Shown: piece by piece, positions 1,371-22,511 of the stretch
Layout: each line of letters starts with the position of its first letter
How positions within the stretch are numbered: position 1 is the stretch's first letter
Source: Baffinella frigidus
Taxonomy: Eukaryota; Cryptophyceae; Cryptomonadales; Baffinellaceae
Reading direction: 5' to 3'
Assembly (NCBI GenBank): GCA_026770585.1
Contig: MU647290.1
Span: forward strand, 91,818 to 114,475
DNA length: 22,658 nucleotides
Notes under the pieces: generated by a model
Seen by the model: the letters and a program-made list of their open reading frames with translations, nothing else
What the model was told of the DNA's origin: nothing
Databases searched by the model: none
Program-made: the position numbers and the translations under genes

Positions 1371-2049
1371 AACTCGGGTTGGCTTGTAGTGATTCACGGG
1401 AGGGGGGGCTACGAGGCGTTGGGCGGAAGCGCCGGGCGATCCAGCGTGTGTCGGAGAGGTCTTGGCTCTCTGGCTCACCAGAAGATGCGAGAGGTCCAGC
1501 GGCGCGATCTCGGGCGTCGAAAACTGCCAGGGTTCAGGGTCGAGGGTTGAGGGTTTGGGGTTGAGAGTTGAGGGGGCGGGTGCAACGGTTCAGGCAACGG
1601 TTCTTCCTCTTCCGTCTTTCTGTTTTCGGGCAACGGTGCATGCACCGGTTCTAGTACTCATCTTACTGTGTCAAGAGGTTGCCTCGAGCGTTATGGGAGA
1701 GCCGGGCCTGCCAAGCAACTGTCCCGGGCAGGGGCTACCCTGCCCGGGGGTTGGGCTTTGATGAGACACTAAGGAGTACCCCGCACGCTTGCAACGGTCC
1801 AGGCAACGCTTCTGGGGAAAGAAAAACGTCGGCGCTCCCCGCAGCTGAGGGAGGTCAGGGGCGCGAGTTGGGCTGCGGGAATTGTGGTCAGTTCACACGT
1901 CTGTACCACGAATCGACCACTTTTGGAAACCAACCATTGATTCCTGAGGCAAATCAACTTTTGCGGGGTCCAACCTGCAGGCTTCGCGGCGGGCGGAGGG
2001 AGTATTTTAAATGTGGGGTTGTTGAATTTAGTACCAGTCACGGGCAGGC

Positions 2050-2091
2050 TTGGTCACGTAGCTCAAGGAATTCCTTGAGCTACGTGACCAA
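2050..2091. repeat. Perfect 42-bp palindrome
   Basis: Arms of 21 bases with no spacer, centred on GGAATTCC. The arm begins TTGGTCACGTAGCTCAAGGA and its exact reverse complement follows. On its own it is too short to be a full MITE of the kinds seen elsewhere here. Confidence 0.85.
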
Positions 2092-2227
2092 AGGCCCGTA
2101 CGTGTGTGAAAATCACTGCACACTTCTTTTCCCCCCTTCACTTGTAAAATGAATCCTGTTTTAAAATAGTGACACTTCTAGCCTCGAATGGAACCTGCAG
2201 GCTTCGGGGCGGGCGGAGGGACGTGAC

Positions 2228-2979: not shown

Positions 2980-3133
2980 CTCCACGCAGGGCTGGAGGGG
3001 GGGGTATTCCAAGGTCAAGTTTTTGAGGGAAACGGGATTCAAAAGTCGATGTTGGGAAGAAAACGGCTCCAAGGGCGACCCAATGGCTCAAAGGGCGACC
3101 CTGGAACCCCCCCCCGAAGGGCCCTGCGTGGAG
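2980..3133 (+). mobile_element. Family L fold-back element, copy 1
   Basis: Terminal inverted repeats are CTCCACGCAGGGC and GCCCTGCGTGGAG, with an inner G-run/C-run pair (GGGGGGGTATTCC near 3000, CCCCCCCCCGAAGGGC near 3110). The internal block AAGGGCGACCCAATGGCTC is shared with copy 2 at 5780-5920. About 154 bp, no coding capacity. Confidence 0.65.
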
Positions 3134-4061: not shown

Positions 4062-7000
4062 GTACCGGATGGCACAAACATTGCAAGGGGCCGGCTTTCC
4101 AGCCAGAGGACCGCACATGGGCCTGAGGAAACCATCGTGCTACAACCCACAGGGCACCAAATATTGGCGCACAGGCGACCGCACGAAGCCGCGCCGAGAG
4201 GCGCCGGGGGGGTCTGGAAGCGCTCTGCGAAAATGGGCGCTGCTGGGGGGGGGGACCTGAGAGCTCACGCCGCGACCCCGGCGTCCGTTGCACGGATCGG
4301 CTCGCCGACTTCGGGACTGGCGAGGTGCTGCCTGACTGCATCGTGCCTTGAATAATCCGTGCTGAATAGCAACAACGTGCAACTCTGCTTGATGCCCCAC
4401 CCGCCGCCCGGTGCCCCCCGTTGGCTTGACTTTTCAAAGTCAATAATTTCTCAAATGTGGACGGAATTGGAGCCATTGCTTTTAAAACTAGCGCCCTTGG
4501 AGTTGTATTTTTAAGCGGGCGGGCACATCGACGATCGTCGCAATGTTCCGTGGTCTCATCACCGCTCTGGTGATTCCATCCATCCATCCAACCACCCACC
4601 ACCACGCACTCACCCGACACCAGTACCACCCACCACAACCACCGCCCACCCCCTCCGTCCGTCCGTCCCGGCAAACCCGATTGACTGTATTCCCCCCCTT
4701 CCGCAGGTGATCTTCGCCTTCATCATGGCAGGCGCCAACAAAGTCACCGATGCCGTCCACCTGGAGACCTACCAATTCCTCTCGCAGGGCTTCAAGTCCT
4801 TCGGCCCGGTGCGAGCCTCCTCGTCACCCGGCGTGCCTTGCCGCTCAATCGGCTTGCCGTCCTCCTCTCCCCCATCCGCGAAGCCCCCAACCCCGCGTCA
4901 AGGTGGCTCTCCGCTGGGCGTAGCGACTCCTCTGCGGAGGCGCTCTCTGTAGAAAGGGGCAGCGAAATGATTCCCGTCGGACGGTCTAGTCATCAGCCGA
5001 AAACATGGGCCGTGGGAAGGGTGGGCAGCGCGGGAGGCCCGAGGGAAGGGCAGGGCTGGGTTCTGGTCGGGATGCTACTCGGCTGGGACGTCCCACGTGC
5101 TCAGATTCCCAGGGTTCTCTCTCAGAACCCCTTGCAGTCTCCCACCAGCCCTCACGGCCTGAGCAAAACGTCGGATTTCGATTTGGGATTTCAAGGGGGT
5201 TGAAGTCGGAATCCGACTTCAACGGCTCCAATTCCCCTTGAAACCGGGATATCGAAAACCGATGATTTGCTCAGGCCGTGAGGGTTGGTGGTCACCTCTG
5301 CTCCCGCCTGTCCCGCCCACCAGCAACCCTCACAGCGGGAGCAAATCGCCGTTTTCAATCCCCATGATGTGTACGGGAGGTCGCCGGAATGCGGGGACCT
5401 GCGGTACGAATCAGGGGTCTCAACAAAGAGGGTTTGCTCCCACTCTGAGGGCTGGTGGCACCTGCGCCCTCGCCACGGCCCTGTGCTCGGCGCCCTGCTC
5501 TCTTCGAGAGAGAGAGAGATCTTTGAGAACGAGAGAGAAAGAGAGAGCAAGAGAGACAGAGCGAGAGAGACAGAGACAGAGACAGACAGACAGGCAGAGA
5601 GACAGAGAGAAAAGGAGAGAGAGCGGGAGACAGAGAGAGCGAGAGAGACAGAGACAGAGACAGAGAGCGAGAAATCTGCGGGGCGTGACGGGGTCCCTCC
5701 TTCTGAGCAGATCTGGGTCAAGGTCTTCAAGGACATTGGGAAAACGATCGGGCAGGAGTCGATAGCTGCGGTACTCCCCACGCAGGGCTGGAGGGGGGGG
5801 GTATTCAAAAGTCAATTTTTAAAGAGAAAATTGGATTCAAAAGTCAATTTTAGGGAGAAAACGGCAGCAAGGGCGACCCAATGGCTCCAAGGGCGACCCT
5901 GGAATACCCCCCCGAAGGGCGATCGGGCAGGAGTCGATAGCAGCGGTACTCCACGGCGAATCCGGATATTTTGTGAAAGTCAATTCACCCACAAAATCTG
6001 TCAACTTAGAAACGAGGTACACAGATTGGGTACTTCTTTACTACGCATTCGCAGGTGAGTTGACTAATACAAAAACTGCGCCCTGGCAGTGTACTCCTAC
6101 CTCCCACCAGCAACCCGTTGCAGCTTATAACCGGATCGGGTACTGTAGTAATTTTCAGCGAAACCGAAGAAATCTCTTCGGTATCTCCCGTCAGGAATTC
6201 GAGGTCCCTAGGGTTTCCTACCGTAGGGTCATATAAAAGATTTTGTTTTAAATAAAATACCCGAATCCTTGCAAGGATCCGGTATACGCTGCTACGGGTT
6301 GCTGGTGGTCTGCCTCTCACTCGTGCTGACCGACTATTCTTAAGTTGACAATCTCTGTCTGTGGTTCAAATCTGTCAACTTTGGAGCGAAAAGGACCCCG
6401 GTCTCACCAAATTGGTGAGACCGAATCAGAGTGAGACAGAGCCAGTACTCGAGACTGGAAGAGGGATTATTCTTAAGTTGACCATTTCTGGCTCGGGTTG
6501 TCGGGCTACTGCCCCCACGTCGCTCACTCCATGCGCCCTGGGCTTTCCCCGGTCGCGCTACAGGGGTACCTCGCCCGACTATTCTTAAGTTGACAATCTC
6601 TGCCTGCGGTTCAAATCTGTCAACTTTGGAGCGAAGAGGAGCCCGGTCCCACCAAATTGGTGAGACCGAATCAGACTGAGATAGAGCCAGTACTCTCATA
6701 GGGAAACTCCCGGAAAGTTGGGTAGTTTCCCTACGGAATTAGGTAGGACCTAGCTACCGTAGGCCGTAGGGCTCCTAGGACCTCCTTTCCTACGAGCCCT
6801 CGGCCTACGGTAGGAGGTCGTAGGCAATGCCGTAGACGAAACTGCCTTCATTTTCGGGGGGGTTACGACTAACTCGACCGAGAGTCCCACCACCCCACCA
6901 GACACCTTTTGTGCCAAGACGATGACTCAACCGGGCAGAGTACATTCGTGGCCTATTATTGTACATTGGTGGCCAGCGCCCCGCTACCTCGTTACGGAAG

Positions 7001-10000
7001 CGTCCAGCCCTGACTCCTGTTTTTGGACCTGAAGCGGATCAAATCGCCTCTACCTCACCCCCTTTTTTGATTTCGTACCCCCTTTTTAGACTTTTTTGGA
7101 GCGTAGAGGCGATTTGATCCGCTTCAGGAGTTTCAGGGCTGGACGCTTCGCAAACTATACCCTTCCACCAGCCCTGCGAGGCGGACCAAAGCGACGATTG
7201 TTTGGAGCCATTTCCTCGGGCGGCACATTCGTTTTCGAAGGTTCCGCCCGAGGAATTGGCGCATGCCCCAGCCTCGATTTGGTCCACCTCGGAGGGCTGG
7301 TGGTTGACACCAGACACCGGAAGCCCTCCCCCCTCGACGCCAGCGTCCCGACTGTGTTAATACTATTAGCGCAACGTCCTGAAAACCGGGTAGTTAGGCC
7401 TACGGATTGCCTACGGTAGGCCATAGGGCTCCTAGGACCTAATTTTTCGTAGGACCCCTAAGCCCACACGGCCTACCGTAGGCAATAATACCGTAGGCTT
7501 AACCACCAGGTTTTCAAAACGTTAGCCTATGAAAGTGCGGGTGGTAGTGATCGCGGTCCCCTGTGGACCCCGAGGCTCACAACCTACCAAGAGAGAGAGA
7601 GAGTGTGTGTGTATCGAGGACGGTGTCTTGGTCACCTCCGAGACGGGCCCGCGCTGCCGCAATGCGCCCCCCGATAAAGTGGGACCCAGGGTCGGCGTTG
7701 GAGATGTCGATCATCGAAAACGCGCCCGTCGCAGGGCCGAAGACCCCCACGTGCGCGGGCATGAAGTAGATGAGGGCTACAGGGGTACCTCGCTCATAAG
7801 AAACCGCCTCCTCCTAGGACCCTACGATCGGGCTATGCCTGGGGCCCTATGGCGGTCCTATGGGGGGGGGTGGAGCCCTTTTCCCCTGAGGCGGGCCCAT
7901 CCAGGACCCGGTCCTCACAGTAGGACCCTAGCGCGGTGTAAACGGTGCGTGTCCATACTCGCGAGTAACCCCTGTACAGGGGCACCTCACTCATAAGAAA
8001 CCGCCCCCCCCCATAGGACCGCCATAGGGCCCCAGGCATAGCCCGATCGTAGGGTCCTAGGAGAAGGCGGTTTCTTATGAGTGAGGTGCCCCTGTACAGG
8101 GGTTACTCGCGAGTATGGACACGCACCGTTTACACCGCGCTAGGGTCCTACTGTGAGGACCGGGTCCTGGATGGGCCCGCCTCAGGGGAAAAGGGCTCCA
8201 AGGTTTTAGATTGGAGACTGGCCCGTGCTTCTCGTCCTGCATCGTGACGCCATGCGCCCACCACCCCTCAAAAGTCAACCAAATCGAGCCATCGCAAAAG
8301 TTGATTTCCCCTCGGTGGTAAATGCTCAGGATTTACCACCCAGGGGAAGTGCCCACAAGTCTCGATATCGCGAGTTGGTTCACTTGTGAGGGCTGGTGCT
8401 AGTCCTGCGTCGTGACAGCATGCGACCCTGCCCCTCACAGGATCTCGATAGTTCGTATAGTCCGTATCTCCCGTATGGTCCTTATGGTCCTTATCTCCCG
8501 AATTTTCCTCTTGATCCTTTTAATCAATTTTTTTTTGCGACAGGATCTTGCGGACAAGTACTTGCTGGACGACGGGTCTAAGACCTACCAGCTTATGATG
8601 AAGGTCACCCTCCCTCCCCTCTCCCATCCCTCCCCTCTCTCCCCCCTCCCTCACCCCACCCCCCTTCCACAGGCTGCCGGCGGCACCACTCAGCCCGACG
8701 CAGACTCCTAGCGTTGCCTCACTCGGGTTGCCCGCGACTGTTCTCAAGTTGACATCCTGGGTTCGGTGGTACACACCCGTCAACTTTGGAGCGGAAAAGA
8801 GCCCGGGCCCAGCAAATTGGTGAGCCCAAAGTTCGGACCGACGGAGGCGGTGTGATGGCCGACTATTCTTAAGTTTACAAGCACGGTGTGCGGTACAAAT
8901 GCGCCAAGCCGTTTATTGATACCAAACTGAATCAAATTCAAAGTGAATCAAAGTGTGGGGCGTGTGCAGACGGTGGGGATTTCGGAGATGGTGTGCGCCG
9001 CGCTGCTGCTCACCCCGCTGCGCATGCTCGGTACCCCCGAACCCCGACCAATCCCCCGCCGTGTCACCTCCCGCGGGAAGCCCCCTTCTGCGGGATCTTT
9101 AGGTCCTTTATCTTCTTCCTCAAGCAAACGGCTCCAATCCCCGGTACCGATGCGTCAGATGTGAAGCCCCGGCTCCGATTCCCTACGAAGAGGTGCGGCG
9201 ATTGGATAAAGGGGCGTAAGATAGCATCATTGTATGCCCAAAATAGCAAATGGACCCTTATCTTGGGCGTCGGCAGTGGGGGTGATGGAGATGGTGTGCG
9301 CGGCGCTGCTGCTCAGTGAGCAGGGGTTTGGGGTTAACCCCGTAGCTCGGTCCCTGGACCTCAAACACGGTGGGCTGCGATGGTTTGCTGCGCATCCTCG
9401 GTACCCCGATGCTCGAAACCCCAAACCCCAAACCCCAAACCCTCGACATCAAACCCCAAACCCCAAATCCCACACCCTACGCCGCTGCGCATTCTCGGTA
9501 AAGCCTACACCCTACACCTTACACCCTACACCCTACACCCGACACCCTACACCCTACACCCTACACCCTACACCCTACACCCTACACCTCAAACCCTGGA
9601 CCCTAAACCCTAAGCCCTAAGCCCCAAACACCAAACACCAAACCTCAAACCCGAAACCCGACACCGCAGGGCTAATCGTGCTCGCCGTGAACATGGCGGG
9701 GGCCATCTACACCCACATCCAGCTCCAGGATTCCCCGGTGCGCTCATCGAGGGTTTGGTTTTAGGAGTTTAGGGTTTGGGGTTTGGGGATTGCTCCCGCG
9801 CATTGCATCGAGCTCCAGGATTCCCCCGGTGCGCTGAGTGCCCCCTTCGCATGTAGGCAGGCTGGCCACACGTTGGGCTACCAAGGTTTCGGTCGGCCTG
9901 CAATTCAGGGTGTTACGTGACCAAATTGTGCTCGCCGTCAACACGGTGGGGGCCATCTACACCCACATCCAGCTCCAGGATTCCCCGTTGAGCGAATTCA

Positions 10001-12129
10001 GGGTTTGGGTTTTAGGGTTTGGGGATTGCTCCCGCGCATTTCGCACTGGATTTCTCTTCGTACCTATTTTAAGGACGAGCCAGAATACCACTCAGGCAGA
10101 GCTAGGGGGTATTGCTGCCCGTGCTTCTTCTTCTCTTCTTTATTACCCTCAGAAAAGACCTCGAGAGGTCCCCCAGCCTTTCGCTTGCTGCTGCTGCTGC
10201 TGCTGGCTGAGGGGTTAGGGCTTGGCGGTTTGTCGCCCGGTGGCACGGAGCCACTCCGAGAGACCGCGGGGGTGGAGCTTTAATAGGAGAAATTAGTTAG
10301 GCCATAGTAGATTTAATTAGGCCTGCTAATTAAATCGCGGTGGCCGCGGGACCCTTTGGGGACAGCGCTCGCGAGATAGCGCACGCGAGGCACGGAGGCA
10401 CTCCCAGAGACTGCGGGGGTGCATTTGTACTAGAATCTTATCCATTTGCATTGGATTCTAACCGCATTCCCCCCGGATATCCGGGGGGGGAGGAACTCGG
10501 CCGCTGCTCCCTCCCTCCCTCCCGCCCGCCCTCCCTCCCTCCCGCCCGNNNNNNNNNNNNNNNNNNNNNNNNNNNNNNNNNNNNNNNNNNNNNNNNNNNN
10601 NNNNNNNNNNNNNNNNNNNNNNNNNNNNNNNNNNNNNNNNNNNNNNNNNNNNNNNNNNNNNNNNNNNNNNNNNNNNNNNNNNNNNNNNNNNNNNNNNNNN
10701 NNNNNNNNNNNNNNNNNNNNNNNNNNNNNNNNNNNNNNNNNNNNNNNNNNNNNNNNNNNNNNNNNNNNNNNNNNNNNNNNNNNNNNNNNNNNNNNNNNNN
10801 NNNNNNNNNNNNNNNNNNNNNNNNNNNNNNNNNNNNNNNNNNNNNNNNNNNNNNNNNNNNNNNNNNNNNNNNNNNNNNNNNNNNNNNNNNNNNNNNNNNN
10901 NNNNNNNNNNNNNNNNNNNNNNNNNNNNNNNNNNNNNNNNNNNNNNNNNNNNNNNNNNNNNNNNNNNNNNNNNNNNNNNNNNNNNNNNNNNNNNNNNNNN
11001 NNNNNNNNNNNNNNNNNNNNNNNNNNNNNNNNNNNNNNNNNNNNNNNNNNNNNNNNNNNNNNNNNNNNNNNNNNNNNNNNNNNNNNNNNNNNNNNNNNNN
11101 NNNNNNNNNNNNNNNNNNNNNCTCTCTCACTCTCTCTCTCTCTCTCTCTCTCTCCCTCTCTCCCTCGCTCTGTCCCGCGCTCTGACTCTCCCCCCCGCGC
11201 AGATGCCGCCGGCGGTGCTGCTGGGGCTGATCATCGCGCTCCTCCTCTGGCCCTCCCCCGTGCGCAAAAGGTGCCCTCCCTGCCACACGTTTTTCAATGC
11301 ACATCTGTTTCCACCGTGTGGACTGCGAAGCGTGTCTTGAGGCGAAAATCCGCCTCACGTTGACCAAGTGTGTACCAGAAAAGGCATCAACCACACGGTG
11401 GACTACGGACCTTTTATCAAAAGTCAACTTGCCCTGCCGCAGTTGACTTGAAGGCCATTTCTGGTGCAAATTTGGTCACGTTACTGCTAAATCTAGGGGT
11501 CCCGAAACTTTCGTAGCCCACCAAGTGGAAACCCAAAACCCTAACCCCAAAGCCTTGACGCTCCTCCTCTGGCCCTCCCCCGTGCGCAAAAGGTGCCCTC
11601 CCCACACATTTCCCACCGTTTCTTAAGTTAACGGATGTTCCACGTTTGCGTTGTGACGTCCCACTCTCGACGTTTGTCTCGGTGGGCAGCGCTCTCATTT
11701 CGGAACCCACACAGCGGACCTCGAAGCCATTGTGAATAACCCCTTAGCGATGAGACCTAGGACCCTACGGTAGACAACCCGTAGGGGCATAGGGGGGTTC
11801 CTACGGAGTCACACGCTGTGTGACTAAACCCAACCCCTAACCCCAAAACCTCCAACGCTCCTCCTCTGGCCTTCTCCCGTGGGCAAGAGGTAACTCCCCC
11901 CCCCCCTGTCAGTCTTGTTCTTCTTCGGTACTCCCAAACTGGGGACCATCGCTGGTCTTATAGAGGGCGCGAGTCTCCTGACCACGCGCGCCTCTTTGTG
12001 AAACCCTGAACTCTAAACCCTAAACCCTAAACCCTAAACCCTAAACCCTAAACCCTAAACCCTAAACCCTAAACCCTAAACCCTAAACCCTAAAACCCTG
12101 TGTGCAGCGGCAAGGCCAAGTCGTCGTAA
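4011..12129 (+). CDS. DoxX-like / TMEM35-type membrane protein gene, 8 exons
   Basis: Joining 4011-4061, 4707-4808, 5711-5770, 8544-8603, 8970-9030, 9670-9737, 11203-11270 and 12108-12129 gives one open frame of 492 nt (163 aa and stop). All introns are GT..AG and the split codons match. The order fits the DoxX-like fold of four helices: a first helix with a GANK motif (residues about 18-30), a soluble loop, a second helix carrying GISEMVCAALLLTPLR (about 95-111), a third with LAVNMAGAIYTHIQL (about 115-130), a fourth LLGLIIALLLW, and a basic tail SGKAKSS. The G-x-x-E and A-x-Y-T-H positions are typical of DoxX-like proteins. Bacterial DoxX and animal TMEM35 relatives are small membrane proteins, some acting as chaperones or redox-complex partners; the role here is unknown. 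About 94% of the span is intron full of repeats. Exon 1 is the least certain part. Confidence 0.75.
4707..4808 (+). CDS. DoxX-like gene, exon 2 (first helix, GANK motif)
   Basis: Preceded by the strong acceptor CCCCCCCTTCCGCAG and followed by donor GTGCGA. Thirty-four codons, phase 0 at both ends, nearly all third positions G or C. Begins VIFAFIMAGANKVTDAVHL, matching the pattern of a first DoxX helix ending in G-x-x-K, and continues into an amphipathic loop ending FKSFGP. Confidence 0.8.
5142..5291. mobile_element. Family C fold-back element, copy 2
   Basis: Ends CCACCAGCCCTCACGGCCTG and CAGGCCGTGAGGGTTGGTGG are near-perfect inverse complements. Inner inverted segments include TTGAAGTCGGAATCCGACTT. 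It lies in intron 2 of the DoxX-like gene. Confidence 0.75.
5317..5458. mobile_element. Family C fold-back element, copy 3
   Basis: Starts CCACCAGCAACCCTCACAGC and ends GCTCCCACTCTGAGGGCTGG plus TGG. It lies only 25 bases from copy 2, so two related elements sit nearly adjacent in the same intron. Confidence 0.7.
5507..5675 (+). repeat. Purine (GAGA/GACAGA) low-complexity tract
   Basis: About 170 bases of GAGAGA, GACAGA and GAGCGA units just upstream of exon 3. Translating it gives Arg/Glu or Ser/Leu repeats with no family content; it is treated as intron sequence. Confidence 0.85.
5711..5770 (+). CDS. DoxX-like gene, exon 3 (loop)
   Basis: Acceptor CCCTCCTTCTGAGCAG, then 20 codons in phase 0 (IWVKVFKDIGKTIGQESIAA), then donor GTACTC. 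It sits in the loop between the first two helices. The last 26 bases and the donor are repeated at 5920-5954. Confidence 0.7.
5780..5920 (+). mobile_element. Family L fold-back element, copy 2
   Basis: Left end CACGCAGGGCTGGAGGGG follows the exon 3 donor directly; right end AATACCCCCCCGAAGGGC directly abuts the second copy of the exon 3 tail. It contains a tandem pair of AAAAGTCAATTTT units. The right end is shorter than in copy 1. Confidence 0.65.
5920..5954 (+). repeat. Duplicate of exon 3 tail and its donor
   Basis: CGATCGGGCAGGAGTCGATA, then GCAGCG and GTACTCCACG, matches 5745-5780 with one substitution and one missing C. No acceptor is seen at its left edge because it abuts the family L element. 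It could serve as a decoy 5' splice site. Confidence 0.8.
6104..6308. mobile_element. Family B fold-back element, copy 1
   Basis: Ends CCACCAGCAACCCGTTGCAGC and GCTGCTACGGGTTGCTGGTGG minus one base; 205 bp. Subterminal CCGGATCGGGTA pairs with a TATCCGGATC-type block near the right end. A second copy of nearly the same length lies at 16524-16730. Confidence 0.8.
6309..6452 (+). mobile_element. Family A fold-back element, copy 3
   Basis: Carries TTCTTAAGTTGACAATCTC, GTCAACTTTGGAGCG and the palindrome GGTCTCACCAAATTGGTGAG followed by ACC. Ends with GAGTGAGACAGAGCCAG, which pairs with CTGCCTCTCACTC at the left. Confidence 0.65.
6570..6697 (+). mobile_element. Family A fold-back element, copy 4
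   Basis: Nearly repeats copy 3 about 250 bases downstream (same TTCTTAAGTTGACAATCTC and GTCAACTTTGGAGCG blocks, with GGTCCCACC in place of GGTCTCACC). The two copies may reflect one tandem duplication. Confidence 0.6.
6697..6850. mobile_element. Family D (CCTACGGTAGG) fold-back element, copy 1
   Basis: Internal inverted blocks CTACCGTAGGCCGTAGGGCT and AGCCCTCGGCCTACGGTAGG around a TCCTAGGACC centre. A small hairpin (TAGGGAAACT / AGTTTCCCTA) precedes it. Confidence 0.55.
6997..7149. mobile_element. Long hairpin element related to family C
   Basis: Outer arms GAAGCGTCCAGCCCTG and CAGGGCTGGACGCTTC, inner arms GAAGCGGATCAAATCGCCTC and its exact complement. The loop is T-rich. The TCAAATCG block resembles the subterminal motif of family C. 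Confidence 0.7.
7165..7303. mobile_element. Family C fold-back element, copy 4
   Basis: CCACCAGCCCTGCGAGGCGG pairs with CCTCGGAGGGCTGGTGG; inner CCTCGGGCGG pairs with CCGCCCGAGG. It lies 15 bases from the previous hairpin. Confidence 0.75.
7381..7515. mobile_element. Family D fold-back element, copy 2
   Basis: Starts GAAAACCGGGTAGTTAGGCC and ends GGCTTAACCACCAGGTTTTC, with CCTACGGTAGG / CCTACCGTAGG inside. Confidence 0.7.
7777..7870 (+). mobile_element. Family E element, left half
   Basis: Starts CTACAGGGGTACCTCGCTCA like copies at 12772-12895 and 21412-21531, but the right terminal repeat is replaced by the large inverted repeat that begins at 7871. Its inner portion is the reverse complement of the loop of that inverted repeat. 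Confidence 0.65.
7871..8200. repeat. Perfect 135-bp inverted repeat with 60-bp loop
   Basis: 7871-8005 and 8066-8200 are exact reverse complements as far as I can read, with no gap or mismatch. The arms include family E termini (CACCTCACTCATAAGAAACC), a GAGGCGGGCCC motif and CTCGCGAGTA. The loop is the inner part of a family E element. It lies in intron 3 of the DoxX-like gene. Confidence 0.85.
8258..8398. mobile_element. Family C fold-back element, copy 5
   Basis: CCACCACCCCTCAAAAGTCA at the left pairs loosely with TTCACTTGTGAGGGCTGGTG at the right. Inner pair TTCCCCTCGGTGGTAAAT / ATTTACCACCCAGGGGAA. Confidence 0.6.
8544..8603 (+). CDS. DoxX-like gene, exon 4
   Basis: The acceptor has a T-rich tract (TTTTTTTTGCGACAG) and the exon has 20 codons in phase 0 (DLADKYLLDDGSKTYQLMMK) before donor GTCACC. 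It leads from the polar loop into the second helix. An alternative downstream acceptor CCACAG at 8665-8670 would instead add AAGGTTQPDADS and a stop in frame, a possible truncating alternative exon (8671-8711). Confidence 0.75.
8713..8850 (+). mobile_element. Family A fold-back element, copy 5
   Basis: Contains CTCAAGTTGACATCCTGGGT, CGTCAACTTTGGAGCGG, AAAGAGCCCGGG and AAATTGGTGAGCCC. A truncated sixth copy (TTCTTAAGTTTACAAGCACG) follows at about 8860-8930. Confidence 0.6.
8970..9030 (+). CDS. DoxX-like gene, exon 5 (second helix)
   Basis: Acceptor GTGTGCAG, 61 bases (20 codons plus 1), donor GTACCC. Peptide TVGISEMVCAALLLTPLRML; the G-I-S-E turn followed by a hydrophobic run is the most diagnostic part of the DoxX-like match. 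Partial copies lie at 9277-9315, 9387-9407 and 9480-9500. Confidence 0.8.
9277..9315 (+). repeat. Diverged copy of exon 5 core, ending at a new GTGAG donor
   Basis: Preceded by TCGGCAG, it reads VMEMVCAALLL in the exon frame and then meets CAGTGAGC, a consensus-like donor absent from the main exon. The rest of the exon tail appears further on as two separate pieces. It could be an alternative second-helix exon or a relic. Confidence 0.65.
9387..9407 (+). repeat. Copy of exon 5 tail with donor
   Basis: GCTGCGCATCCTCG then GTACCCC matches the last 14 bases of exon 5 and its donor with one change. Confidence 0.7.
9418..9660 (+). repeat. C-rich telomere-like arrays (CCCCAAA, ACACCCT, CCCTAAA)
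   Basis: Three successive variants run through this block: CCCCAAAC, then CCCTACA, then CCCTAAAC/ACCAAAC. The C-rich strand is the sense strand and the array ends about 10 bases before the exon 6 acceptor. It encloses the third exon 5 tail copy. Confidence 0.85.
9480..9500 (+). repeat. Second copy of exon 5 tail with altered donor
   Basis: CGCCGCTGCGCATTCTCG then GTAAAG: the tail of exon 5 with one change and a different but still GT donor, embedded inside a C-rich telomere-like array. Confidence 0.65.
9670..9737 (+). CDS. DoxX-like gene, exon 6 (third helix)
   Basis: Acceptor GACACCGCAG, 68 bases (2 plus 22 codons) completing the split Gly codon from exon 5, donor GTGCGC. Encodes LIVLAVNMAGAIYTHIQLQD; the A-x-Y-T-H segment is characteristic of the third DoxX helix. 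Tail and near-complete copies follow at 9810-9834 and 9924-9987. Confidence 0.8.
9810..9834 (+). repeat. Copy of exon 6 tail with donor GTGCGC
   Basis: GAGCTCCAGGATTCCCCCG then GTGCGC repeats the exon 6 end and donor with one extra C. It is preceded by TTTAGGG-type repeat and GATTGCTCCCGCGCATT, which itself recurs at 10026-10040. Confidence 0.75.
9924..9987 (+). repeat. Near-complete copy of exon 6 with damaged borders
   Basis: Starting at AATTGTGCTCGCCGTCAACA, it matches almost all of exon 6; in frame it would replace AVNMAG by AVNTVG. The acceptor edge is replaced by GTTACGTGACCA and the donor has become TTGAGC, so normal splicing looks lost. Confidence 0.7.
10188..10205 (+). repeat. CTG trinucleotide microsatellite
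   Basis: Six perfect CTG units in intron 6. No supported coding context. Confidence 0.85.
10416..10508 (+). mobile_element. Family G element, copy 2
   Basis: Shares TGTACTAGAATCTTATCCAT, a CCCCCCGGATATCCGGGGGG palindrome and the end CTCGGCCGCTGCT with copies 1 and 3. The assembly gap follows 40 bases later after CCCTCCCT repeats. Confidence 0.6.
10549..11121. other. Assembly gap (573 N)
   Basis: Unresolved bases flanked on the left by CCCTCCCTCCCGCCCG units and on the right by a CTCTCT tract (11122-11170). The gap probably hides low-complexity sequence. Nothing can be said about its content or true length. Confidence 0.99.
11203..11270 (+). CDS. DoxX-like gene, exon 7 (fourth helix)
   Basis: Polypyrimidine tract ending CCCCCCGCGCAG, 68 bases (22 codons plus 2), donor GTGCCC. 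Encodes MPPAVLLGLIIALLLWPSPV followed by basic residues, a short final helix. Two tail copies with donors follow at 11559-11592 and 11855-11889. Confidence 0.8.
11384..11450 (-). mobile_element. Family M fold-back element, copy 1 (minus)
   Basis: CAACCACACGGTGGACTACG, then AAAAGTCAACTTGCC and AGTTGACTT, is the reverse complement of copies at 12437-12500 and 13353-13412. Confidence 0.65.
11559..11592 (+). repeat. Copy of exon 7 tail with donor
   Basis: CGCTCCTCCTCTGGCCCTCC through CGCAAAAG and GTGCCCTCCC repeats the last 34 bases of exon 7 and its donor exactly. It is preceded by AACCCTAACCCCAAAGCC repeat, not by a clear AG. Confidence 0.8.
11740..11830. mobile_element. Family D fragment
   Basis: CCTAGGACCCTACGGTAG and GTTCCTACGGAGTC resemble the centre of family D, followed by a small CACAC/GTGTG hairpin. 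Ends are not clear. Confidence 0.35.
11855..11889 (+). repeat. Second copy of exon 7 tail with altered donor
   Basis: ACGCTCCTCCTCTGGCCTTC through GGCAAGAG and GTAACT: same tail with four changes and a more consensus-like donor. As with the first copy, AACCCCTAACCCC repeat precedes it. Confidence 0.75.
12000..12097 (+). repeat. Nearly perfect (CCCTAAA)n array at an intron 3' end
   Basis: About twelve almost perfect heptamers, the cleanest telomere-like array in the window, ending 10 bases before the exon 8 acceptor. The sense strand is C-rich and could supply CTAAA branch-point-like and pyrimidine signals. Confidence 0.9.
12108..12129 (+). CDS. DoxX-like gene, exon 8 (last, 22 bases)
   Basis: After TGTGTGCAG, the 22 bases complete a split Ser codon and add GKAKSS and TAA. 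The result is a short basic cytosolic-type tail. The exact phase match and stop support this tiny exon. Confidence 0.7.
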
Positions 12130-15871: not shown

Positions 15872-18800
15872 GTGCGGATCAGTGAACTTGCTCCTCCAAG
15901 GGTCTCTTGTTCGTAGATCCCACCGGAGAGGCCATCCAGGCCTCTCTCCGGCCCTCTGGGTGGTGCGAAGCACGGGCGAGTAGCCCCCCCCCAATGTTCC
16001 GGGGGCGCTAGGCATCAGCCAGGTGTCCGTTGTCATCAGCGCTGCTCTGATCTTGAACCAGAGGTCGCACTGCAGTGATGACGCTGGAGCGCGTTGCAAC
16101 CTGTCGCAAAGGCAGCCTAGATACCCACACATCCACCACACACCATCTGCTTGCTGCCCGTCGCCGCGGCCGTAGGCACCAGCCAGGTGTCCGTTGACAA
16201 AAGCCGGTGCAACCTGTCGCGTGTCCACACAACGGCGAGCGCAACGCGCAGCCGCCCCGTGATAGCCCTCTCCATCACGACAGGAGCCAGAGAAGGAGGC
16301 ATCGGCTCTCGCAGAGGGGCGCACTCCGAGCAGGCGCACCGCGAGCAGGGAGGGGGAGACGCGCTCTCCCATGTCCGTGAACCGCGCCATGAGCTCCGGA
16401 GGTGCCGCAACCGTCCCCCTTCTTTGTTAATCTCCAGCGTCAAGTCGAGTGATCCAATAGTCTACGAGCCGTATGTCGGACCCGCCTCGGCATTCTCAAC
16501 ACCCTGAATGGCCGTGTCGACTTCCACCAGCAACCCGTTGCAGCTTATAACCGGATCGGGTAATGTTGTAAATTTCCGCTAAACCGGACATATCTGTCCG
16601 CATTTCCCGCCAGCAATTCTGAGGTCCCTATGGACTCCTACCGTAGGGTCCTACGAATAAAACAGAAAAAAAACCTTGGTTCCCGGATCCTTGCAAGGAC
16701 CCGGTAAAAGCTGCTACGGGTTGCTGGTGGTTCGCTGAGAAGGCCCAGGGTCTAGCTCTGCCTCAGCCGTTTCAGAGCTCTCCCATCCACTAGCCCTTGG
16801 AGGTGGCTTCAACAGTGCTCTGGAACAGTTTCGATTTACCTTGACATCGGGGTCGGATCCGGCCCGACCCCGATGCAAGGTAAAATCCAAGACCTTCTAG
16901 GGCACTCTTTGAGCCACTTGGGAGGGCTGGTGGATGGGCGTGCACCGCGCCATGAGCTCCGGAGGTGCCGCACCCCTACGCTAGACCTCAGGGTGGTCAA
17001 TCGCAAAAGTCAACTCCTCACTGCCGCGAGGTCAACTTTTGGAAGAATAGCCCGTGTTCGGGCTATTCTGCAAGGGTGTCAACTTATGATTGCTCCCGGT
17101 CACGTCTAAAGTAGCTTTCCCCTCCCTCTCTCCATCCCCCCCCCCCCCCACCTTCTCTCCCCCTATCACCTCCTCCTCTCTCCCTTGCTTCTCTCGTTCG
17201 CTCCTCTCTCTCCTCCCTTCCTCCCTCCTTTACCCCCCCCCCTTCTCCAAGGCCTAGCTCTGTCTCAGTCTATTGGGGCACACAAATTCGCTTCACCCGG
17301 GCTCTTTCCCGCTCCAAAGTTAACGGATCTGCACCGCGCACCCAGCGTGTCAACTTGAGAAAAGTCGGCCAACCCGACTGAGGCAGAGCTAGACCTCCCG
17401 CCCTCACAGCGCGATCCAGTCGCGTTTTTCAGGTCTCTTGATTCGTACTTGAGCCCCTCGGGATCCGGTGGGCTGAATCCGGTGGGCTGAGCCATTCCCG
17501 TACAAATCTCTTCGCGTTCCTGAATAGATTTAATTTCAGATTTGGCTTGGCGTTTGAGCCATTTCGTACTTTTAGGGCTTTAAGACAGCTGGGTGTCTAC
17601 CATAAATATTTTAGATGGGACAGTTCCCGAGATCAAATCTGTTCAGGTCCGGGACTAAATCACGGGACTCGACCAAGGCGCTCTGGTCGCCAGAGCACTA
17701 CAAAATAATAATAATAATAATGATAATAATAATAACAACAATAATAATGACTCAGTTTTTTTTTGCTAAGAACCCACAAAAGAAGTTTCAGCCAGGTTTG
17801 GAAGGATACAGTTTGTTCCTCATTGCTGATGGCCGGGGGACGCTCTTATCTGGGGAAACCTATTTTTCTTTAGTTTGATGGCAAGGAAAATTACTACATA
17901 AATGCTTTAATATTACTAATAAGAACGAACTGTGTAGTAATTTTCCTTGCCATCAAACTAAAGAAAAATAGTTTTCCCCGGATAAGCTCATCCGGCGACC
18001 AGCGCAGCAATGATCATGCAAAAAGCCAACGCCAGTGAGCTACTTACAGCCTACAGATTGCCTACGGTAGGAGCCCCCCTTCCTACGACTTTCAAAATAT
18101 TTTATTTTAAAAGTCGTAGGATGGGGGCTCCTACCGTAGGCAATCCGTAGGTCGTAAGTACCTCGCTGGCGTTAGCTTGCGGTATTAATGAGGGGGGGCT
18201 CCTATCAAGAGGCGGGTCTGTCCCCGAAAGGCGAGCTGGTCTAAAGAGCACTCCACTTTGCAGCCACCGGGGGCTTCACGGGTACAGTCCATCTTAACCA
18301 TGTGTACTAGAATATTATCCATTTTCATTGGATTATAACCGCATTTCCCCCGGATATCCGGGGGGAAAGGCTCTCGGTCGCTGCTACGTGGCACACACCC
18401 CACCCCTCCCTCAACAGCCCCACGTGCCCAGTCCGCGTCCCGCCCTCCCGCACCCAGCTGAGTGCGAAAATGCCATTTTGTCACCTACCCACGGTACCAG
18501 TGAGTGCGGGGCTCACTGGTGGGGTGCGGGAGGGCGGAACGCGGGACTCACGGGACTCACTCACGCGACTCACGCACTCACTCAACATGCAGTGCCTCCT
18601 CGAAAGAGTGACAGCCTAATCCGCGGGCACACATTAATTAATATATTAATAGGGTAACGGACTAGGCCTACGATATTACCTACGATAGGCCGTAGGGGTT
18701 TTCGTAGGAGCCCCCCTAGGTCCCTACGGCCTACCGTAGTCAATACCGTAGGCCTAACTACCCCAGTTTTAGTCCGTTACCCTATGAATATCTCTGAGAT

Positions 18801-21800
18801 ACGGGTGGTGGAAGCAGGGCGGAGCACCGAGGGGGGAACTCCGATTGGCCGCCTCAAGACCTCTGCCCCATTGGAGCATGCTCTACTGCAAAGCCCCAGA
18901 GGAAGTCTCAAAATTCTTAGACACGACACTAAAATTACTTGTAGGTTACCTTTTGACGAATTTTGGTCACGTCCTTGGGGTGAAAATTGCCTTTTGAGGA
19001 GAAAATGGCTCAAAAGTATGCGACACCAGAGTGTCGCGAACTTTTTGAAACTTCCCCTGGGGCTTTCCAGTAGAGTAACATTGCATTATGTGTTGAGTGA
19101 ATTCCGTTGGCAGGAACGGCGTTAATTAATGTTAATTAATATCTCTGAGATACGGTATTAATTCGTATCTCATTAATTCATATCTCTGAGATACGGCTGG
19201 TGGAAGCAGGGCAGAGCAGCGAGGGGGGAACTCCGATTGGGCGCCTCAAGAGCTCCCAGGTCAACCCTACACCCTAAACCCGAAACCCGAAACCCGAAAC
19301 CCTAAACCCTAAACCCTAAACCCTAAACCCTGAACCCTAGACCCTGAACCACAAACCACAAACCACAAACCACGAACCCCAAACAACAAATCCCACACCC
19401 CACACCCCACACCCCAAACCCCAAACCCCAAACCCCAAACCCCAAACCCCAAACCCCAAACCCCAAACCCTAAATCTAAATCCCCAAACCCTAAATCCGG
19501 AAACACTGTAGGCTCTAAACCCTAAACCCCCAACCCTAAATCCTAAACCCTAAATCCTTAACCCTAAAACCCATACCCCACACCCCACACATCTGTTGAT
19601 AATCAATTAATCAGGCGATAATCAATTTATTGGGTAATAACCATTTCATCTGATCATCAATTAACCAATCTGATTAAATCTGATCATCGATGAACCAGCT
19701 GGCTATCAATCAGCCAATTAAGTCGGTTGATTGTCAATTGACCATTTCTTAATTATCATGATTAATTGATAAGCCGACAATCATTGCTTCACCCACGGGG
19801 GAGGAGGGTCACTAAGGCGGCTCAAGAGCACTGTAGGCTCTCAACCCGCAACCCCACTCCCCAACCCCCACACCAGAACGTTGCACCCCCTACACGCCCT
19901 AATAAAACCTCCCGTCCGTCCCGTACACCCTTAACGTACCAAGCGCATCGTGACAAGACGCCACCCCGATCTTGGCGGGGGCCTGCGGGATTGGTCTAGT
20001 AAGGTCCCCTAGCGAAGAATGCTGGATACGCACTGCCGGGGTTTCGCCCTACACACTTATCCGGGGAAACCTATTTTTCTTTAGTTTGATGGCAAGGAAA
20101 ATTACTACACAATTCGTTCTTATTAGTAATATTAAAGCATTTATGTAGTAATTTTCCTTGCCATCAAACTGAAGAAAAATAGGTTTCCCCGGATAAACAC
20201 CCCCCTGACGACCCATGTCCTACTGATGCCCAATGCCCCTCATGACGGTCGTCGGGTGTAGCGTGTAGCGTGTACGGTGTACGGTGTAGGGTGTAGGGTG
20301 TACGGTGTACGGTGTACGGTGTAGGGTGTAGGGTGTAGCGTGTAGCGTCCTCAACTCTTCACCTTTCACCTCCAACCCAGGGGGGGGGGGGGTCACCGAG
20401 GCGACTCAAGAGCACTGAGGTAGACCCCAAACCCTAAACCCTAAATCCCAAACCCCTAACGCCTAAACCCCAAACCCTAAACCCCAAACCCCTAACGCCT
20501 AAACCCTAAACCCCAAACCCCAAACCCTAAACCCTAAACCCTAAACCCTAAACCCCGAACCCTAAACCCTAAACCCTGAACCCCGAACCCTTTACCCTAA
20601 ACCCCAAACCCTAAACCCTAAACCCCAACCCCTAAACCCTAAACCCCAAATCCTAAAACCAAAAACCTAACCTCAATTCCCAGGGGTCACCAGTGGTGCG
20701 GATCACGAGCACGGAGGGGACTTTAACCCCTAACCCCTCACCCTCAAAACCCAAAACCCAAACCCCAAAAACCCAAACCTAACAACCTAAACCCTCGATT
20801 CGCAGGGGTCGCCGGTGGTGACGCGCACGCCCAGCGGATACCCCCAGCGCACCCCGAGCCAGGTCTCTACCGCTCCTAACATGCTTTGGGATTTGGTCCG
20901 GGGGGCAGCCCGACTCGAAGAGGACTCGCTACCCCCCCCGGAAACCAGACTCTTCACCGCTCCAAAGTTGACTGGGTTGTACCACCGGCCCAGCATGTCA
21001 ACTTAAGAATAGTCTGCCAAGAGTACGGAGGGGTCGCCAGAGACCAAGCGGATACCACCAGCACACACCCAGCCAGGTTTTGACCGCCCCTAGAGCGCTG
21101 TGCAGAGAAGTTGGCCACGGGAAATAATGGAAAATCGAGAAATTGGAGCCATTTTGTCGACTTTTGAGAAATTTAGTACCATGAATTTCTCAAAAGTAGA
21201 CAAAATGGCTCCAATTTTCCCATTTTCCCATTTTTCGGCTACCACCAGCGCACCCCCAGCCAGGTCTGTTTCTGAAGTTAACTTAAGACTGTCAGACTAT
21301 TCTCAAGTTGACATGCAGGGTCCGCGCGGTACACCCCCATCAACTTTGGCGCGGGAAAGTGCTCGGCCTCACGAAATTGGTGAGACCGAATAGTCTCCGA
21401 GCGGATCCTCTTCAGGGGTACCTCGCTCATAAGAAAACGCCCTTCCCCAGGACCCTTCAGTAGGCCTATGCCTAGGGCCCTATGGTGGTCCTAGGGGGTG
21501 GGCGGTTTGGTGTAAGCGAGGTACCCCTGTAGCGCATTCCCCATCGCGTGTGGCGATGGTCTGTGCATCCGAACCGTTGCGGACCACCAGCCACCACCAG
21601 AGAACCAAATCAGGGTCATGAGGCCTATGGTGAAACCCCCTGCACCCTAGAGGCTCAGCCTTAAGTCTGCAGGAGGAATCAACTTTTGCGATCGTTCAAT
21701 TTGGTTCACTTCTAGTGGCTGGTGGGACCCCTGCATCAAAAGCGCTCTTGGAGTGAGGCTGTTTTGTACCGGCAGTTACATCTAAATGCACTGTTTTGCA

Positions 21801-22511
21801 CCGGCGGTTACATCTAAATGTGTTGTAGGGCGCGTCCAGATGGGAGGGGCCTGTTTAAAACCGTTTTCTTTTACAAGTGGGCGTTTGTGTAGTAACTTTC
21901 GTGAAGTTGGTCGCGTAATTCTGCGAAGTTAGCACAGTCACGAGGTTGGAATACCCCATCCTGGTACAAATATTTACAACCCCACTTGTAGATAGGGTCC
22001 TCTGGCATTTTCGAGTGGAGGCGCTCCAACACCTGGAGAACCTGGATCACCGCACCCTAAACCCTAAACCCTGAACCCTAAACCCTAAACCCTGAACCCT
22101 AAACCCTAAACCCTAAACCCTGAACCCTAAACCCTAAACCCTAAACCCTGAACCCTAAACCCTAAACCCTAATCCTCAAAACCAAACTCCAAACGCCAAC
22201 CCCCAACCCCGCAACGCAGGCGTCTCAACAGCGAGAGACCAACAGCGGCGAGACCAACAGCGGGAGGAGATAGACGAGCGCAACCCCTCGCGCACCCCCC
22301 CGACACCCAAACAGGGCTCATTCGAGGTTTCTGACGGTCAGAGGCTCACCCCCCCCACGCAGCGTCGCCAAAGGCCAAGACACTCTCAATCCTGAAACGC
22401 AAACCCGAAACGCAGGCGCAACAACGGGAGGAGGTAGAGCGGCGCGCCTCGCGCACCCCCTCCGAAGCAGGAAACCCTGCCTGCACCCTAGACTCCAAAC
22501 CCGAAACATGA
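15815..22511 (+). CDS. Second micro-exon gene: Ser/Thr/Pro/Arg-rich protein (function unknown)
   Basis: Proposed exons 15815-15871, 16284-16401, 19210-19259, 20381-20419, 20806-20862, 21031-21076, 22220-22326 and 22416-22511 join in frame from an ATG to a TGA. Exon 1 encodes a short amphipathic start (MADNNPFGGLVGWFGALAK). All other exons encode polar, probably disordered sequence with recurring R-T-P-S or R-T-P-P, potential proline-directed kinase sites, and a Gln/Arg/Glu-rich helix-like piece (residues in 22220-22326). No family is recognised. The phases fit at every junction, but several exons are members of duplicated sets, so the true combination may differ. Introns hold telomere-like arrays and fold-back elements. 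The last exon reads partly into C-rich repeat before the stop, so the real 3' end may lie beyond the window. Confidence 0.5.
15872..16283. other. Intron 1 of the second gene, with an internal direct repeat
   Basis: Two related blocks, CATCAGCCAGGTGTCCGTTG near 16013 and CACCAGCCAGGTGTCCGTTG near 16178, each later followed by TGCAACCTGTCGC. No supported exon inside. Long open frames on both strands here look like chance results of high GC. Confidence 0.45.
16284..16401 (+). CDS. Second gene, exon 2 (largest, Arg/Ser/Glu-rich)
   Basis: Acceptor CATCACGACAG, 118 bases (39 codons plus 1), donor GTGCCG. Encodes EPEKEASALAEGRTPSRRTA, then SREGETRSPMSVNRAMSSG. Start phase 0 matches exon 1. Charged, with no hydrophobic core. 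The exon end and donor are repeated at 16939-16964. Confidence 0.6.
16524..16730. mobile_element. Family B fold-back element, copy 2
   Basis: 207 bp, with the same ends as 6104-6308 and about three-quarters identity by eye. The central CTACCGTAGGGTC segment is conserved in both copies. Confidence 0.8.
16787..16933. mobile_element. Family C fold-back element, copy 6
   Basis: CCACTAGCCCTTGGAGGTGG at the left, CCACTTGGGAGGGCTGGTGG at the right, with an inner TTTACCTTGACATCGGGGTC / GACCCCGATGCAAGGTAAA hairpin around GGATCCGGCC. Confidence 0.7.
16939..16964 (+). repeat. Copy of second-gene exon 2 tail with donor
   Basis: CACCGCGCCATGAGCTCCGG then AG and GTGCCGCA repeats 16379-16408. It directly follows a family C element, much as the exon 3 tail copy of the DoxX-like gene follows a family L element. 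Confidence 0.8.
17251..17396 (-). mobile_element. Family A fold-back element, most complete copy
   Basis: Terminal repeats GGCCTAGCTCTGTCTCAGTC and GACTGAGGCAGAGCTAGACC; inner CCAAAGTTAACGG and GTGTCAACTTGAG are the reverse complement of the plus-oriented copies. 146 bp. This copy defines the family's ends. Confidence 0.8.
17397..17845. other. Intron sequence, lower GC, no gene seen
   Basis: Contains a duplicated ATCCGGTGGGCTGA word near 17465 and an AAT microsatellite at about 17702-17749. Open frames are short and cross the microsatellite. Nothing is assignable. Confidence 0.5.
17702..17749 (+). repeat. AAT/ATA trinucleotide microsatellite
   Basis: Interrupted AAT units with single GAT and AAC variants; about 48 bases. 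Confidence 0.85.
17846..17985. mobile_element. 140-bp MITE with 4-bp target duplication, copy 1
   Basis: Long terminal inverted repeats of about 50 bases starting TTATCTGGGGAAACCTATTT and ending in the complement GATAA. The 4-base GCTC occurs on both sides (17842-17845, 17986-17989). The loop runs in the opposite orientation to copy 2 at 20057-20196. No coding capacity, so mobilised in trans. Confidence 0.9.
18023..18178. mobile_element. Family D fold-back element, copy 3
   Basis: AAGCCAACGCCAGTGAG pairs with the complement at the right end; inner GATTGCCTACGGTAGGAGCC and GGCTCCTACCGTAGGCAATC pair exactly; the AT-rich loop is itself palindromic. Among the best-preserved of the family. Confidence 0.85.
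18251..18386 (+). mobile_element. Family G element, copy 3
   Basis: CAGCCACCGGGGGCTTCACG, GTACTAGAATATTATCCAT and the CCCCCGGATATCCGGGGG palindrome, ending CGCTGCTACG. Nearly full length compared with copy 1. Confidence 0.65.
18649..18785. mobile_element. Family D fold-back element, copy 4
   Basis: ATAGGGTAACGGACTAGGCC pairs with the right end AGTCCGTTACCCTAT. Inner ACGATAGGCCGTAGGG pairs with CCCTACGGCCTACCGT. 137 bp. Confidence 0.8.
18818..18870 (+). repeat. Diverged copy of second-gene exon 3
   Basis: After GGAAGCAG the copy reads RSTEGGTPIGRLKTSAP in the frame of exon 3, but lacks the CAG/GT donor of the copy at 19210-19259. Both copies are preceded by the same GATACGG(GT)GGTGGAAG segment, so the acceptor side was duplicated too. 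Confidence 0.65.
18889..19068. mobile_element. Fold-back element between the two exon 3 copies
   Basis: AAAGCCCCAGAGGAAGTCTC pairs with AACTTCCCCTGGGGCTTTCC. It contains CCTTTTGACGAATTTTGG and CCTTTTGAGGAGAAAATGG blocks. About 180 bp. Confidence 0.65.
19130..19200. repeat. AT-rich repeats of TTAATTAAT and TATCTCTGAGATACGG
   Basis: The palindromic word TATCTCTGAGATA occurs at about 18789, 19140 and 19182, each next to an AT-rich stretch. It flanks both copies of exon 3. Confidence 0.7.
19210..19259 (+). CDS. Second gene, exon 3
   Basis: Acceptor GGAAGCAG, 50 bases (2 plus 16 codons, completing the Gly codon of exon 2), donor GTCAAC. Peptide QSSEGGTPIGRLKSSQ. The phase match with exon 2 is exact. 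Confidence 0.5.
19260..19590 (+). repeat. C-rich telomere-like array (CCCTAAA, CCCGAAA, CCCCAAA, CCACAAA)
   Basis: Starts five bases after the exon 3 donor and moves through several heptamer variants, including a long CCCCAAA run near 19410-19465. The C-rich strand is the sense strand. Confidence 0.9.
19602..19770. mobile_element. AT-rich fold-back element
   Basis: Terminal ATCAATTAATCA and TGATTAATTGAT, with many internal TGATNATCAAT words. Strikingly AT-rich between two GC-rich blocks. 169 bp. Confidence 0.65.
19806..19832 (+). repeat. Decayed copy of the GSP-type exon
   Basis: GGGTCACTAAGGCGGCTCAA then GAGCACT and GTAGGC parallels exon 4 (20381-20419): GSLRRLKST against GSPRRLKSTE. The donor is retained, the acceptor is GGAGGAG without a pyrimidine tract. 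Confidence 0.6.
20057..20196. mobile_element. 140-bp MITE with 4-bp target duplication, copy 2
   Basis: Same length and nearly the same arms as 17846-17985, loop reversed. Starts TTATCCGGGGAAACC and ends GGTTTCCCCGGATAA, flanked by ACAC on both sides (20053-20056, 20197-20200). Confidence 0.9.
20254..20346 (+). repeat. GTGTAGGG/GTGTACG heptamer array
   Basis: About 13 units of GTGTA(G/C)(G/C), G-rich on the sense strand, unlike most arrays in this gene. A sequence cousin of the CCCTACA units at 9490-9590. Confidence 0.85.
20381..20419 (+). CDS. Second gene, exon 4 (begins with 12 G)
   Basis: Acceptor CCTCCAACCCAG, 39 bases (13 codons), donor GTAGAC, phase 0 throughout. Reads GGGGSPRRLKSTE. 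The first 12 bases are all G, exactly four Gly codons, so the frame depends on a slippery run. Confidence 0.45.
20420..20680 (+). repeat. C-rich telomere-like array (CCCTAAA/CCCCAAA)
   Basis: About 260 bases of CCCTAAA, CCCCAAA and CCCCTAACGCCTAAA units between GSP-type exon copies, ending near the acceptor at 20683. A shorter array, 20730-20797, precedes the exon at 20806. Confidence 0.9.
20684..20716 (+). repeat. GSP-type exon copy without donor
   Basis: After TTCCCAG the copy reads GSPVVRITSTE. At the place where a donor is expected the sequence is GGGACT, so it is probably not spliced normally. Confidence 0.6.
20806..20862 (+). CDS. Second gene, exon 5
   Basis: Acceptor CTCGATTCGCAG, 19 codons in phase 0 (GSPVVTRTPSGYPQRTPSQ), donor GTCTCT. 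It contains two R-T-P-S motifs. Tail copies with donors follow at 21031-21076 and 21241-21263. Confidence 0.6.
20925..21018 (-). mobile_element. Family A fold-back element, minus copy
   Basis: GCTCCAAAGTTGACTGGGTT and GCATGTCAACTTAAGAATAG are the reverse complement of the family core. It lies between exon 5 and its first tail copy. Confidence 0.6.
21031..21076 (+). CDS. Second gene, exon 5 copy, possible exon 6
   Basis: 46 bases from GGGTCGCCAG to CCCAGCCAG before donor GTTTTG. A deletion relative to exon 5 changes the end phase to 1, which is the phase needed by the next exon at 22220. The acceptor (ACGGAG) lacks a pyrimidine tract, so it may be a relic. Confidence 0.3.
21120..21238. mobile_element. 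AT-rich hairpin element between exon 5 tail copies
   Basis: AATTGGAGCCATTTTGTCGA pairs with GACAAAATGGCTCCAATT; inner ACTTTTGAGAAATT pairs with AATTTCTCAAAAGT. A fragment of the same element may be present at 4425-4480. Confidence 0.75.
21241..21263 (+). repeat. Second tail copy of exon 5 with donor
   Basis: ACCACCAGCGCACCCCCAGC then CAG and GTCTGT; the exon 5 end and donor with a few changes. Confidence 0.65.
21290..21396 (+). mobile_element. Family A fold-back element, plus copy
   Basis: CTCAAGTTGACATGCAGGGT, then ATCAACTTTGGCGCGGG and AAATTGGTGAGACCGAAT. It is directly followed by a family E element. Confidence 0.6.
21412..21531. mobile_element. Family E fold-back element, copy 3
   Basis: CAGGGGTACCTCGCTCATAA at the left and AGCGAGGTACCCCTG at the right; the right inner arm is diverged. 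Confidence 0.75.
21584..21725. mobile_element. Family C fold-back element, copy 7
   Basis: CCACCAGCCACCACCAGAGA with ACCAAATCAGG at the left, and CAATTTGGTTCACTTCTAGT with GGCTGGTGG at the right; inner AATCAACTTTTGCGATCG. Confidence 0.65.
21765..21830 (+). repeat. Two 33-base direct repeats
   Basis: TGTTTTGTACCGGCAGTTAC plus ATCTAAATGCAC is followed at once by a second unit with three or four changes. Confidence 0.75.
21871..22044 (-). CDS. Minus-strand coding remnant or exon (57 codons, unknown family)
   Basis: The minus-strand frame has 57 sense codons then TAA at 21873-21871, with no stop upstream until the telomere-like array. The peptide includes VLERLHSKMPEDPIYKWGCK, YLYQDGVFQPRDCANFAELR and DQLHESYYTNAHL. 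Balanced residue use, with aromatic and Cys residues, resembles a folded domain and not repeat translation. Third-position GC is lower than in the DoxX-like exons. GATCCAG at the upstream edge could be an acceptor. It lies inside an intron of the plus-strand second gene. I do not recognise it. It could be the end of a captured gene or of a mobile-element protein. Confidence 0.5.
   Translation of the reverse strand, partial: QVLQVLERLHSKMPEDPIYKWGCKYLYQDGVFQPRDCANFAELRDQLHESYYTNAHL
22054..22175 (+). repeat. (CCCTAAA/CCCTGAA)n telomere-like array
   Basis: About 17 regular heptamers with a period-three or -four CCCTGAA variant, C-rich on the sense strand of the second gene, upstream of the acceptor at 22219. 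Confidence 0.9.
22220..22326 (+). CDS. Second gene, exon 7 (Gln/Arg/Glu-rich)
   Basis: Acceptor CGCAACGCAG, 107 bases (2 plus 35 codons), donor GTTTCT. Reads VSTARDQQRRDQQREEIDER then NPSRTPPTPKQGSFE: a short charged helix with a DQQR repeat, followed by S-R-T-P-P. Other frames contain stops. Confidence 0.6.
22416..22511 (+). CDS. Second gene, candidate last exon (diverged relative of exon 7)
   Basis: After AACGCAG the phase-0 frame reads AQQREEVERRASRTPSEAG and continues to TGA at 22509 through repeat-like sequence. It parallels exon 7 (QQREEIDERNPSRTPP), so it is an exon duplicate with preserved charge and R-T-P motif. No GT donor follows within the window. Either it is terminal or the donor was lost. 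Confidence 0.4.
   Translation, partial: AQQREEVERRASRTPSEAGNPACTLDSKPET

Follow-up and report, generated by a model that had tools for sequence, protein, structure and literature searches.

Tandem exon duplication is a known phenomenon. Repair of staggered breaks, by CST-Pol alpha-primase fill-in of 3' overhangs and end joining, produces small tandem duplications (PMC8355091), and insertion of telomeric repeats at breaks with duplication of the flanks is likewise known (PMC2246262). Introners create introns, and the described families with target duplications have duplications of 3–9 bp (PMC9860276). We compared these systems with a window of 22,658 nucleotides from Baffinella frigidus (C901:91818-114475 of a 382-Mb assembly), the whole stretch of DNA analyzed here, in which edges of the exons of a DoxX-like gene recur as direct copies within its introns.

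As in tandem exon duplication, a whole exon of this gene (exon 6) is copied beside itself, but most copies are exon edges, broken and intronic. Functional tandem exon duplication, with splice sites and frame kept, was rejected: by our reading the acceptor AG is missing from the copy of exon 6, and overlapping exon copies on two other contigs (C506 and C112) contain stops. Like the staggered-break duplications, as far as the cited account describes them, those at the locus double tens of bases in direct orientation, here at a presumed break, but the copies are usually separated by other DNA and an exon may have several (PMC8355091). The described interstitial telomeric insertions resemble it in having an insert between doubled flanks, and telomere-like arrays occur here too, but these arrays are neither enriched nor oriented at the junctions (PMC2246262). 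Introners, as described, also combine mobile sequence with splice-site reuse in genes, algal genes included, whereas here extra copies lie in existing introns and the duplications measure 20–200 bp (PMC9860276).

Direct copies at donor and acceptor edges

The DoxX-like gene (4543..12129, plus strand, as are all features given below unless stated) was modelled from its translation and splice dinucleotides. It has eight exons (4543-4569, 4707-4808, 5711-5770, 8544-8603, 8970-9030, 9670-9737, 11203-11270, and 12108-12129) and seven introns, all GT-AG, and its coding sequence (CDS) of 468 nt specifies 155 amino acids that match DoxX_2 (PF13564; Pfam, E 1.5e-7). We compared exon ends with each intron and with 300 first-order Markov resamplings of that intron, for which the lowest attainable P is 0.0033. 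The 3' end matched its own downstream intron at four of seven exons, each at this floor, with scores of 37–78 against control maxima of 24–28; exons 1, 2, and 4 had no 3'-end copy above the resamplings of their downstream introns. Exon 5' ends matched the downstream intron at two of seven (exons 5 and 6) and the upstream intron at none of seven, and no 3' end of seven matched its upstream intron at the floor (lowest, exon 7, P 0.037).

The exon 3 segment at 5745..5777, comprising the 3' end and donor, recurs at 5920..5952 (33 bp, one mismatch, 97%). Two copies of the exon 5 3' end and donor, each of 21–22 bp, lie at 9387..9407 (original 9017-9037) and 9479..9500 (original 9012-9033), preceded by a copy of the acceptor and 5' part of that exon at 9265..9315 (original 8958-9012). 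Exon 6 has a copy of its 3' end and donor at 9806..9835 (original 9716-9744) and a whole-exon copy that includes the downstream TTTAGGG-like array at 9924..10040 (original 9674-9804, 80% identity). Exon 7 is represented at 11559..11611 by its 3' end, donor, and ~20 nt of intron (original 11237-11292, 93% over 56 bp) and again at 11856..11891 by its 3' end and donor (original 11237-11272, 89% over 36 bp). An earlier reading of the sequence alone (hereafter, the original prediction) had reported copied 3' ends with donors at these four exons, and its copies are present with small shifts, except that a supposed core copy of the exon 5 3' end (9277-9315) is the acceptor-side copy and a supposed exon 6 3'-end copy (9924-9987) belongs to the whole-exon copy. 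Its remark that copies end just past the GT is accurate where the intron share is ~2–7 nt (~7, 7, 3, 7, and 2 nt in the window) and fails for the copies with 22 nt (exon 7), 67 nt (whole exon 6), and ~70 nt (locus L035, 813-943).

The comparison was widened to 54 exons, with simple arrays masked: the eight of the DoxX-like gene and 46 hits, with approximate ends, of profile hidden Markov model (HMM) searches for HSP70 (15 of 17 hits) and kinesin (31 of 51), all from fetched loci totalling 260 kb; two single-exon HSP70 genes of contig C709, 20 kinesin hits, and 11 chaperonin hits were left out. The 3' end was copied downstream at 17/54 exons and the 5' end with its acceptor upstream at 13/54. 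The opposite placements were rare: 3/54 exons had the 5' end copied downstream and 1/54 had the 3' end copied upstream. None of 216 tests gave an inverted copy, and none of 216 gave a match with reversed letters. Two of the exons, C506:56113 and C112:294252, are probably copies themselves, and without them the counts become 17, 11, 2, and 0 of 52. Ten exons had both kinds of copy and 20 at least one, and short hits were more often affected (18/38 under 180 bp vs 2/16 longer ones).

Donor and acceptor edges thus behave alike, each having direct copies nearly always on its adjoining side, so the process is not specific to donors, contrary to the original prediction. The zero of seven upstream 5'-end copies in the DoxX-like gene may be why a donor effect was seen. 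The observation behind that prediction is confirmed and widened, and its interpretation is partly supported. That the copies are an assembly artefact, such as two haplotypes joined in tandem, we consider very unlikely: all counts come from a single, gapped assembly (573 N in the window), but the copies are partial, mostly 70–98% identical, stand up to five in a row with differing inserts, and occur on 11 of the 17 contigs tested.

Elements and arrays between the copies

The gap between the exon 3 copies is filled exactly by a foldback element of 142 bp, here called F1, whose right end is truncated (5778..5919). A second F1 copy in the window (2982..3132) retains both ends and lacks a long duplication at its flanks. 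A first look at the genome gave 859 candidates, of which 40 were scored, and 16 other copies were examined. Each of the 16 has some form of the 10-nt end that is missing at exon 3, and long duplications flank none of them. The exon 3 duplication is therefore not the usual target-site duplication of F1, and at this one locus it accompanies a damaged element end. Nor is the likeness to introners drawn by the original prediction supported: F1 does not make up an intron (it occupies 142 bp of the 2773-bp intron 3), and the 33-bp duplication at exon 3 departs from target-site duplications of 3–9 bp, the 16 other F1 copies having no long one.

A second family, Z, has a member between the copies of a 30-bp duplication at 1972..2221 (1972-2001 / 2192-2221; no strand assigned), possibly at a minus-strand exon end. 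This member is identical to Z positions 5-210 at 171/210 sites in an alignment spanning 1984-2191, and the left 30-bp copy (1972-2001) may overlap the element's own end. The 15 Z copies fetched had no long flank duplication; their flanks yielded one imperfect 12-bp abutting repeat, one non-abutting 21-bp match, and one array match. An element also lies between copies at L021 7054-7389, whereas T elements at L016 and L023 are read as later insertions within a copy; flank comparison took in 150 bp, and the copies ~200 bp away at these two loci were found by the foldback-flank test. The arrangements at exon 3, window 1972-2221, and L021 would suit a transposable element family with long, variable target-site duplications, but similar duplications do not recur across the families (1/17 F1 copies counting exon 3, 0/15 fetched Z copies). 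This reading, largely refuted for the examined copies of the three families, is very improbable.

Telomere-like arrays were not enriched at junctions (24/205 on each side vs a background of 718/6000). As a separate observation, the sense strand of arrays within 100 bp of the 54 exons is C-rich in most cases (18 C-rich and 3 G-rich upstream, 20 and 2 downstream; the loci are not independent). Such arrays may act as branch point and pyrimidine tract, or the bias may reflect avoidance of G-rich RNA.

Proposed break repair, rival tandem duplication, and possible edge preference

We propose, with moderate confidence, that DNA-break repair, filtered by splicing, left these copies as scars. On repair of a break, an adjacent ~20–200 bp would be doubled in direct orientation, either by fill-in of a staggered break or by a template switch back to upstream sequence, and a foldback element (with one end damaged at exon 3) or a repeat array would sometimes be sealed between the copies; some duplications would afterwards be amplified in tandem. 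If the doubled sequence took in a donor or acceptor, a complete splice site would remain on the copy adjoining the body of the exon, and the surplus would leave as intron. Such a duplication would be tolerated by selection because the mRNA is unchanged. We infer the break, the repair route, and the splicing filter, and likewise that exon 3 represents the rest; direct orientation at the same locus, as expected of break-repair tandem duplication, is what we found (inverted, 0/216).

Several results weigh against this proposal. The damaged element end was seen only at exon 3, and the F1 copies examined are the best-ranked of 859 candidates, with lower-ranked ones ending at positions 133-137 outside the sample. 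Truncation of the window Z copy was considered and rejected, as its weak alignment spans nearly the whole of Z (171/210). Strong inverted repeats occurred inside 34/171 inserts vs 53/467 in the control, and none of the 171 had an inverted repeat abutting both copies within 6 bp, although this test also misses F1. Clean junctions are a minority, and foldbacks with adjacent flank duplication (31/223, of which five belong to the L027 palindrome cluster) are in modest excess over random positions (85/968). The signature expected of telomerase, G-rich sequence after the first copy and C-rich before the second, was absent (8 G/16 C and 13 G/11 C arrays, respectively). The remaining two points, shared breakpoints and an excess of exon-edge pairs, bear on rival explanations.

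Serial copies sometimes have a breakpoint in common, as at exon 7 and at L035 (1018 and 1213), a pattern more consistent with tandem amplification than with independent breaks. Serial tandem duplication by replication slippage or unequal exchange, with elements and arrays inserted between the copies later, is also favored by five tandem copies of an acceptor and first part of an exon at L034 and an S-E-S-E-S unit at L030 (both by reading), and by the apparently later T insertions at L016 and L023. The exon 3 gap, however, consists of exactly one end-deficient element, which an unrelated later insertion would produce only by luck; the 16 other F1 copies have both ends. Serial duplication followed by insertion is the chief alternative to break repair and probably plays a part, though as the explanation of the copies we consider it somewhat unlikely.

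Whether exon edges are preferred was examined in 16 introns flanked by exons that are contiguous in the HMM or CDS, and two measures disagree. By window coverage there was no preference: a local direct copy was found at 5/21 unique exon-edge windows and 35/157 unique intron windows, the latter clustered and mostly belonging to units with an exon copy as well. This test treated 41 windows resembling exon edges separately and did not count those that are dispersed (36/119 intron, 1/4 ends). By pair count there was one: among 33 unique pairs, 16 reach into an exon, another 11 consist of copied exon edges, and the remaining 6 lie in intron alone, so that an exon edge or a copy of one takes part in 27/33, edges being a small part of the sequence. 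The 33 include three entered manually (two that reach into an exon, one intron only) and omit 10 dispersed pairs (6 intron only, 4 exon-edge copies), with which the count is 31/43; low-complexity pairs were dropped from the listing, and 195/443 were set aside as dispersed. A general repair process screened by splicing would not be expected to give this excess unless detection differs, and exon pairs may indeed remain detectable longer, one copy being conserved.

The excess would suit a process that acts specifically on exon edges or splice sites, such as co-transcriptional breaks, R-loops, or RNA-templated repair, but such a process is improbable. Edges are no richer than intron interiors by coverage, selection on one copy of an exon pair would prolong its detection, the copies contain intron sequence that a spliced-RNA template would lack, and donors alone are excluded as the target by the acceptor copies. 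Doubtful, though less so, is a broader idea, that breaks linked to transcription, or to short foldback transposons that failed to excise close to splice sites, are mended by copying the exon edge once more into the intron. Working on both donors and acceptors, this exon-anchored ratchet would be a main route of intron growth in this lineage.

What is unusual is how widely introns resemble exon edges: 51/327 intron windows, about a sixth, still resemble the neighboring exon edge (control, 16/3859), in 8 of the 14 introns giving windows. Break repair across splice sites would offer a route of intron growth that spares the protein, its duplications being neutral and the surplus discarded by splicing; it may be a main route in affected genes, where it would leave this countable record. 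Gene finders should beware of such decoy exon edges.

Other features of the window and loci

Two duplications in the DoxX-like gene involve intron sequence only. In intron 3, a foldback (8259-8398) is flanked by an imperfect 26-bp direct duplication (8231-8256 / 8399-8424) at distances of 2 and 0 (score 32), and in intron 6 a direct duplication spans 10242..10421 (10242-10274 / 10389-10421). The region 7778-8200 contains a long perfect palindrome with arms of 135 nt (7871-8005 and 8066-8200, 100% complementary). A JGI relative, P0001, is 69% identical to the DoxX-like protein across 44% of the query; by eye, it is continuous through exons 4–6 without introns 4 and 5, so these introns may be recent or may have been lost in P0001, and it seems to extend into intron 6. 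At L027 (C709:126000-135999), two equal-scoring HSP70 genes lie on opposite strands, with dense palindromic elements carrying GGTACCTCGCTCATAAGAAA nearby. Elsewhere in the window, a candidate exon end in a putative gene model (20830-20878) has two downstream copies (21044-21092 and 21236-21267), and further exon-edge-like direct copies, some possibly on the minus strand, lie in putative genes at 15999-16220, 16376-16975, and 18788-22465.
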